Origin: Planococcus kocurii
GTDB lineage: Bacteria > Bacillota > Bacilli > Bacillales_A > Planococcaceae
Assembly: GCF_001465835.2 (NCBI RefSeq)
Contig: NZ_CP013661.2
Coordinates: 3,092,501 to 3,156,500, forward strand
Reading direction: 5' to 3'
DNA: 64,000 nt
The position numbers and the translations under genes are program-made. Below, piece after piece: positions 35,383 through 52,393 of this stretch. How positions within the stretch are numbered: the first letter of the stretch is position 1; each line of letters begins with the position of its first letter. Under the pieces are notes generated by a model. It made no database searches. It was not told where the DNA came from and saw only the letters and a list, made by a program, of their open reading frames with translations.

Positions 35383-35416
35383 TACTACGATTAGGCTATA
35401 ACAAAATATCGATTCA

Positions 35417-35540
35417 TCTTCGGGGCAGGGTGAAAGTCCCTACCGGCGGTAATTGAACTCTGTTCATAAGCCCGCGAGCCGTAAAACGCAGGATTTGGTG
35501 AAATTCCAAAGCCGACAGTATAGTCTGGATGGGAGAAGGT
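35417..35540 (+). ncRNA. FMN riboswitch (RFN element)
   Basis: The conserved boxes of the FMN aptamer are all present: GGGGCAGGGTGAAAGTCCC, TACCGGCGGTAA, AGCCCGCGAGCC, GGATTTGGTGAAATTCC, AAGCCGACAGTATAGTC and GGATGGGAGAAG. The final GGGAGAAGG (35531-35539) can pair with CCTTTTCTCCC (35593-35603), the left arm region of the terminator. FMN binding should therefore permit termination and shut off ribU. Confidence 0.95.
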
Positions 35541-35599
35541 GAAGGTGCGGACGTTTGTCGTTTACATGTAGACGGAACGCTTATTAAGTGTGCCTTTTC

Positions 35600-35688: not shown

Positions 35689-36270
35689 ATGAAGAACAAA
35701 AAGTTACAAACGATGATTGTGATTGGGATGTTAAGCAGTATTTCATTTATATTGATGCTTTTTAACTTTCCACTACCTGCATTACCGGCTTTTTTGAAAG
35801 TGGATTTTAGTGACGTACCGGCATTAATTGCAGCCATCACGATGGGGCCAGTTGCAGGGATTTTAGTAGCATTCTTCAAAAACGTGTTGGATTGGCTTTT
35901 TGCAGGAAGTCCGACAGGTGTACCTGTTGGTCATATGGCTAACTTTATAACAAGTTTGCTGTTTATCCTTCCGGTTTATGCCATCTACCACAAAGTAGCG
36001 AATAAAAAAGGCATGATTTTTGGCTTAGCTGTGGGAACATTAACTATGGCAATTGGTATGAGTGTTTTAAACTATTTTGTGTTCTTGCCAATGTATACGT
36101 ACTTTTTAAATGTGCCTGCTGAAACGGGCAATGCGTTATTTGGCACAATTGTCTTAGGGATATTACCATTTAACTTAATCAAAGGTCTATTGTTAACTTC
36201 GGTCGTCCTGCTAGTATTCAGCAGCATGCACACATGGATCGAAAAGCAAAGATCCTATTATTTATCATAG
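35689..36270 (+). CDS. ribU: Riboflavin ECF transporter substrate-binding subunit RibU
   Basis: The S component that captures riboflavin and works with the shared EcfA-EcfA'-EcfT module. The 193-residue integral membrane protein has about six helices, with the family motifs FLKVDFSDVPALIAAITMGP and GVPVGHMANFI. AAGGAGAGAGG marks ATG 35689; the longer frame upstream lies in the leader. Control by the FMN riboswitch confirms the riboflavin link independently of sequence similarity. A structured repeat begins immediately after the stop codon. Confidence 0.95.
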   Translation: MKNKKLQTMIVIGMLSSISFILMLFNFPLPALPAFLKVDFSDVPALIAAITMGPVAGILVAFFKNVLDWLFAGSPTGVPVGHMANFITSLLFILPVYAIYHKVANKKGMIFGLAVGTLTMAIGMSVLNYFVFLPMYTYFLNVPAETGNALFGTIVLGILPFNLIKGLLLTSVVLLVFSSMHTWIEKQRSYYLS

Positions 36271-36307
36271 ATAAAGAAAAGCGAAAACAGCTGTGTAGAT
36301 TTGACGG
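36270..36307. repeat. 38-base direct repeat, copy 1 (left end of palindromic element)
   Basis: GATAAAGAAAAGCGAAAACA plus the next 18 bases recur at 36393-36430 with one mismatch (AGCTGTG against AGCCGTG). Confidence 0.9.
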
Positions 36308-36390
36308 GCACAAGATGCACTGGCGAAGCGGCATTTTTTCAGCCGCATAGCTAGTGTGGCTTGTGACCCTAAAATCTGGCTGGTTGAGTC
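36275..36390. repeat. Long imperfect palindromic element A
   Basis: AGATTTGACGGGCACAAG on the left pairs at 15 of 18 positions with CTTGTGACCCTAAAATCT on the right. The inner stem is GCGGC (36328-36332) with GCCGC (36342-36346), joined to the outer stem by the segment TGGCGAA. A related element, with compensating base changes, lies at 52161-52250. I recognise no known RNA family. Confidence 0.7.
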
Positions 36391-36392
36391 TG

Positions 36393-36430
36393 GATAAAGA
36401 AAAGCGAAAACAGCCGTGTAGATTTGACGG
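36393..36430. repeat. 38-base direct repeat, copy 2 (truncated element)
   Basis: It repeats the left end of element A with one mismatch and then breaks off into unrelated sequence (AATTCGAATT), so this looks like a second, truncated copy. Confidence 0.85.
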
Positions 36431-36450: not shown

Positions 36451-36495
36451 AAAAGAAGGCGTACTGGAGAATCCCTCCAGTACGCCTTCTTTTTT
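36451..36495. terminator. Terminator of fer (bidirectional)
   Basis: AAAAGAAGGCGTACTGGAG (36451-36469) pairs perfectly with CTCCAGTACGCCTTCTTTT (36475-36493), with runs of A and T on the two sides. Confidence 0.85.
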
Positions 36496-52066: not shown

Positions 52067-52113
52067 AGGATGACTTTTGCGAGACACAATCTTGCAAAAG
52101 TCATCCTTTTTTT
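52067..52113 (+). terminator. Terminator of hup
   Basis: AGGATGACTTTTGC (52067-52080) pairs perfectly with GCAAAAGTCATCCT (52094-52107), then T. Confidence 0.85.
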
Positions 52114-52393
52114 GAGCCAAGATTTTGCGAAACACCTGTGCGTGTGCTACGATTCATGTGAGAAAAGCGCAGGAAGCCGTCAAGACCCGACAAGCATAAG
52201 ACGCCTTGGCGAAGCGGCGGTGTTCAGCCGCACATTAAGGCATCTTAACAAACCGATAAAGCGCATTGCTTAATCTTAATGGGTAAAGCCCTTAAGGCTG
52301 AATAGTGAACTGCTAACGCATATAAAAATAATAGCAGCAGCCATCCTGCTGCCAAAACAAATAACCGATTCGTTTTCAACAGGGGGAAGTAAA
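52114..52393 (+). other. hup-folE intergenic region
   Basis: No gene recognised in this 280-base stretch. It holds palindromic element C (52161-52250), a small hairpin AGCC/GGCT near 52287, and another GCAGCAG/CTGCTGC at 52334-52352. A short open frame across the element is an artefact. Confidence 0.6.
52161..52250. repeat. Palindromic element C, relative of element A
   Basis: It shares AGAAAAGCG at the left, TGGCGAAGCGGC and TTCAGCCGCA at the centre with element A at 36275. The outer stem AAGACGCCTT (52198-52207) pairs with AAGGCATCTT (52237-52246) with one mismatch. Confidence 0.7.

Follow-up and report, generated by a model that had tools for sequence, protein, structure and literature searches.

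Two related elements in the window

The window (the whole stretch of 64,000 nucleotides that was analysed) contains two palindromic elements between genes, here termed A and C (Table 1). Direct reading of the window sequence confirms the existence of both elements and their common blocks. A nested hairpin with the inner stem GCGGC/GCCGC is present in both, as had been described, and the outer stem, which reads CACT/AGTG in A and CCTT/AAGG in C, is paired in either case. Element A opens an array in which positions 36270–36307 and 36393–36430 form a 38-nt direct repeat with 97% identity. An FMN riboswitch is located upstream of ribU (window 35412–35544, 123.6 bits), hence array A is situated at the 3′ end of a riboswitch-controlled message. 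RNA folding against shuffled sequences gives −50 kcal/mol for element A (z −4.7, 0 of 200 shuffles) and −37.2 kcal/mol for element C (z −2.1), the latter being moderate.

The original prediction placed element A right behind ribU and element C after the hup terminator. Both positions are correct; element C does not, however, lie downstream of hup in the hup message, but in the folE leader region, where it is a decayed unit. In window 52125–52175 and in the orthologous loci L433–L462, the first bases of the unit (GAAAAGCG or close to it) follow a promoter-like stretch (TGCTACGAT...ATGTGA) upstream of folE, which the consensus promoter scan did not report. This unit start is kept by almost every congener, including those with no complete hairpin left, and looks like an old insertion, apparently at the start of the folE leader.

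Table 1. Features at the two loci (window coordinates).
Feature	Position	Strand	Evidence
Element A, full unit of about 122 nt, GAAAAGCG...TCTGGATAAA	36276..36398	+	Covariance-model match G000:C2:3128776-3128898, 126.7 bits, E 2.4e-33; RNA fold z -4.7
Truncated second unit, closes array A	36399..36430	+	38-nt direct repeat; profile match to model positions 1-32
ribU stop codon TAG, 5 nt upstream of element A	36268..36270	+	Stop-distance scan; sequence
Terminator-like hairpin 3′ of array A, between the convergent ribU and ferredoxin genes	36451..36493	.	19-bp inverted repeat; terminator scan
Element C, degenerate unit, folE leader region	52162..52277, recognisable to about 52247	+	Covariance-model match G000:C2:3144662-3144777, 23.5 bits, E 0.0125; profile match 3144662-3144747
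hup terminator, upstream of element C	52067..52107	+	18-pair stem, then T run

Unit architecture and folding

The covariance model was built from a seeded alignment of 26 full units, which gives the one-unit consensus GAAAAGCGnAAGCGGCCGTGTAGATTCGACGGGCATAAGACGCnCTGGCGAAGCGGCGTnTTTTCAGCCGCACAGCCAGAGTGGCTTATGACCCnAGAATCTGGnCGCTGGAGCTAGACAAA. The consensus hairpin comprises 34 pairs and covers nearly the whole unit; it consists of five helices separated by conserved unpaired bases, and its internal loops are fixed. Units are joined head to tail by the linker GGACA-nnn-GAAAAGCG. An alternative fold, in which the 3′ tail would pair with the unit that follows, looks imperfect by eye. The GTGTAG stretch is variable in the alignment (GTTTAG, GTTCAG, GTTAAG, GTTATG).

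In the 26-unit alignment 97.1% of the cells are paired, and two-sided compensatory changes occur at 21 of the 34 pairs. None of 500 shuffles reaches any of five measures, and control structures slid by 1–3 columns reduce the paired cells to 27–41%. Selection on folding, originally proposed from the paired differences between A and C, is thus strongly supported: covariation from these two copies alone is weak evidence, whereas covariation from 26 units is decisive.

A G·U pair on one strand corresponds to A·C on the other, so that an equal need for folding on both strands would give a ratio of about 1:1. The counts of G·U versus A·C are 283 versus 54 in a MAFFT sequence-only alignment of 133 distinct units and 58 versus 8 in the first 26 units, an excess to which strand-biased C-to-T mutation could contribute a part. 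Because G·U outnumbers A·C, it appears to be the sense strand that is kept foldable; we consider this evidence as strong but not final.

Family size and distribution

DNA searches of the same genome with each of the two copies return 51 and 65 matches, many of them in tandem with a period near 122. With the covariance model, at least 89 units are found on the chromosome, which group into 42 arrays of 1–8 units at E-values up to 0.0125. The number of copies, with E-values to 1e-38, refutes a chance similarity between two intergenic hairpins, which has practically no probability left even if element C by itself is a weak match (23.5 bits). The proposed check by covariance model and covariation turned up both further copies and compensatory changes beyond chance.

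The model detects the repeat family in all 46 genomes of the genus that were searched, each of which carries between 8 and at least 78 units; these copy counts are lower bounds. It was also detected in 187 of the 261 genomes searched from the taxonomic family, representing 15 of 19 genera, and, in a sample drawn across the class, in 59 of 398 genomes from 32 of 145 genera. Named loci with an exact core belong mostly to Bacillaceae and relatives such as Rossellomorea, Neobacillus, Metabacillus, Cytobacillus, Siminovitchia and Jeotgalibacillus, and the model confirms a tandem unit of 120–125 nt in those genera. The suspected link to palindromic repeats of Bacillaceae is thus confirmed by the presence of the family in these genera. 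Carriage by plasmids or phages was rejected, since a consensus-like unit had no match in either the plasmid or the phage collection.

No named family had been recognised at the outset, and this agrees with Rfam 15, which has no matching family: nothing matches at the gathering score, and a relaxed E-value returns only weak chance matches of microRNA type. A literature search by sequence fragment and keyword, with most subscription journals outside its coverage, found no paper on the repeat family, so that a prior description is possible. A hairpin repeat tied to stop codons, with tens of copies per genome in many families of Bacilli, accordingly stands without an Rfam entry or a retrieved paper. 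A curated model would account for many unannotated intergenic stretches and for some assembly breaks in these genomes. At the rplT locus of genome G034 (L380), a run of N begins within one family unit and ends within another, as would be expected if the array had given rise to an assembly gap.

Placement and transcription

On the chromosome under study, 27 of 42 arrays start within about 8 nt (−4 to +5) of a stop codon that ends a gene of the same sense, whereas random intergenic positions would fall that close to a same-sense stop in 4.7% of cases. Such starts account for 13 of 22 arrays in genome G045 and for 26 of 81 loci in other genera; about a third of the arrays in the present genome, and most of those in other genera, are not located at a stop codon. 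In several arrays the first G of the element doubles as the third base of a TAG stop. None of the 42 arrays starts at 6–78 nt behind a same-sense stop codon. This gap is not easily explained by selection alone, and implies either insertion aimed at stop codons or a hairpin that works only next to one. The host genes are unrelated: glyS, leuS, rplT (L20), ychF, a phytoene-synthase-like gene, agmatinase, atpC (ATP synthase epsilon), acpP and metH.

A terminator-like hairpin follows downstream in the sense direction for 18 of 42 arrays, as compared to 4 of 42 in a reversed upstream control, and arrays behind stop codons should hence lie within the message. From this position, we infer that the arrays are transcribed in vivo. 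Of the three natures first considered, that of a mobile palindromic repeat stands as far as a dispersed repeat of high copy number is meant; a simple palindrome it is not, given the tandem unit of about 122 nt with fixed internal loops and polarity. The term structured 3′ element is adequate for most copies, which occupy the start of a 3′ UTR, but does not give a full account, and leader RNA describes only a minority such as element C.

Array structure and history

Arrays are arranged head to tail and are usually closed by a truncated extra unit of variable length. Similarity between units has a mean of 0.84 within arrays, with 42% of pairs above 0.95, and a mean of 0.73 between arrays. Comparison of the array flanks with about half of the G045 genome places most arrays at the same site, with a different copy number and often a different unit sequence. 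Many arrays share their site in the two species at a flank identity of 75–97%, which argues for slow movement. Empty or decayed orthologous sites are found in this comparison at 279191, 448492, 1288892, 1421677, 1442290 and 2399997.

Among 30 congeners, full units are present behind ribU in 8 and in the hup–folE gap in 11; in that gap, the first bases of the unit or more are retained by nearly all of the congeners. Behind rplT, one or two units occur in some species and a short spacer directly before the terminator in others. Truncated and decayed copies are common.

These observations bear on the idea of a cis-acting functional RNA, for instance a protein-binding or RNase-blocking 3′ UTR element, which is kept gene by gene and does not disperse. 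Strong covariation with conserved internal-loop bases, the placement at stop codons, and the persistence of sites between related species despite altered unit sequences would all suit such an element. It would not be expected, however, to sit behind genes that have nothing in common, to be as patchy at orthologous loci as the full units at ribU and hup, to range from 8 to at least 78 copies per genome, or to leave truncated and decayed copies so frequently. We consider this explanation rather unlikely.

The bases just before an array resemble its own linkers more closely than linkers from other arrays (0 of 2000 shuffles), which fits a short duplication of the target as well as intra-array conversion. 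Hints of target-site duplication or of a fixed breakpoint are seen at single loci, i.e. rplT (L393, L394, L400), ribU and the GTGA linkers at hup; for this reading, the empty sites available for comparison are too diverged. Since the breakpoints around the stop codon are scattered from −3 to +8, we claim neither that a target-site duplication is precise nor that the break falls at a fixed point within the stop codon.

A classical MITE derived from a DD(E/D) transposon, with its placement due solely to purifying selection acting on coding and promoter sequences, would be short, non-coding, of high copy number and patchy, all of which applies here, and bcr1-type MITEs are known in Bacillus cereus (PMC3446304, PMC3733652). 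Yet no terminal inverted repeats are recognised outside the RNA-like hairpin, there is no proven target-site duplication, and both the sense polarity and the zone 6–78 nt past the stop codon that is empty in this genome would go unexplained, so that we assign a low probability to a MITE of this kind.

Another candidate is a relic of a single-strand DNA transposon of the REP/RAYT or IS200/IS605 type, with a Y1 (HUH) transposase to move it: a hairpin with strand polarity would also suit single-strand transposition, and the genome has two Y1_Tnp genes. But 17 of 46 congeners lack Y1_Tnp, including G004, G006, G012, G027, G034 and G039, which have between 54 and at least 78 units. Furthermore, no copies of the repeat are located near either of the two Y1_Tnp genes, one of which carries a different palindrome; the alignment lacks a conserved GTAG tag, and the unit is far longer than REPs. 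Mobilisation by RAYT or IS200 was rejected on two grounds, the lack of Y1_Tnp in copy-rich genomes and the absence of the repeat from the Y1_Tnp loci of this genome; we regard such an origin as very improbable.

Comparison with known repeats

In its behaviour the repeat may be closest to the MIRU, BOX and bcr repeats. Mycobacterial MIRUs form tandem arrays with a polarity that follows transcription, and their target is overlapping stop and start codons. The likeness concerns short, apparently mobile repeats at gene boundaries, and extends to the position at stop codons (27 of 42 arrays start no further than about 8 nt from one in the same sense), to the fixed polarity and to the head-to-tail order. 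MIRUs differ in having a small ORF for translational coupling, whereas the unit of about 122 nt conserves an RNA structure with covariation; moreover, there is no sequence link between the two, and MIRUs reside in a different host phylum. BOX of Streptococcus pneumoniae is a repeat that is likewise intergenic and structured, and its modules vary in number. Compared by description, its boxA-boxB-boxC architecture contrasts with a whole hairpin unit that is repeated head to tail.

The bcr1–bcr18 repeats of the Bacillus cereus group are, in the available text of their description, intergenic repeats of which about half are transcribed in 5′ or 3′ UTRs or operon spacers; carriers of bcr3 have a longer mRNA half-life, bcr1 is reported as restricted to the B. 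cereus group, and bcr1–3 are regarded as MITE-like (PMC3446304). The arrays described here share the intergenic position and the occurrence in Bacilli and would likewise be transcribed. Placement at stop codons and a unit of about 122 nt do not feature in that part of the bcr description. REP/BIME sequences resemble the present repeat as hairpin repeats dispersed at gene ends; REPs are palindromes of 20–40 bp with GTAG or CGTC tags (PMC3733652), whereas the present unit measures 122 nt and has neither a conserved tag nor a link to RAYT genes. We regard the repeat as a probably new member of the structured interspersed repeats, the comparison with bcr4–bcr18 being one by description.

Possible mechanism of spread and retention

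Elements A and C probably belong to a Bacillales-wide family of non-autonomous, dispersed and structured repeats which reside in the 3′ UTRs of mRNAs and whose folding as RNA is under selection. The unit of about 122 nt (GAAAAGCG...GGACA) would fold as single-stranded RNA of the sense strand into a single long hairpin whose internal loops are fixed. Most new copies would arise at stop codons, oriented like the gene concerned, and be transcribed as the beginning of its 3′ UTR or as an operon spacer. Slippage or recombination between the repeated 5′ ends could expand, shrink and homogenise the arrays.

The repeat, presumably moved by a trans-acting machinery, would spread slowly and be best tolerated at stop codons in gene sense. 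Foldability may be kept because an unfolded or reversed copy in a message is harmful, or because the fold is needed for spreading. The fold may have its effect within the mRNA. In the simplest case it would be a stable hairpin that bounds the coding region on its 3′ side, where it could shield the mRNA or insulate neighbouring genes and thereby render insertions harmless or mildly useful.

There is a small chance that the family is a mobile element spread via RNA and aimed at stop codons, in which a structured RNA unit is released from an mRNA and then written into DNA again where another translated gene ends. A single insertion step coupled to translation or to the transcript would then account for the position at stop codons, the polarity in gene sense, the selection on the sense strand, the fixed 5′ edge and the variable 3′ truncation.

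The family raises the question of how a repeat reaches stop codons with no recognisable transposase. It also provides dozens of natural experiments per genome on the effect which a strong hairpin directly behind a stop codon has on an mRNA.

Variant units and other palindromes

In the arrays at G000:C2:1421798, 1984038, 1776168 and 2417296, some units combine a similar outer stem with a quite different inner hairpin, which looks like a subfamily made by a swap of the inner module. The array at G000:C2:2724635-2725614 has eight units of two types in strict alternation, with a double period of 245 nt. RAYT-like genes at two Y1_Tnp loci (L061 and L150) adjoin a palindrome of their own, GCCATCTTC...GAAGATGGC; at L150 (genome G045) the 3′ end of the RAYT-like gene is tandemly duplicated together with that palindrome. 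A second palindromic repeat (GCGCGAC...GTCGCAACG...CCGCATCCTGCGG) is inserted within family units at the ribU locus of genome G044 (L406) and at the G045 site orthologous to G000:C2:417418, i.e. repeats are nested in repeats.
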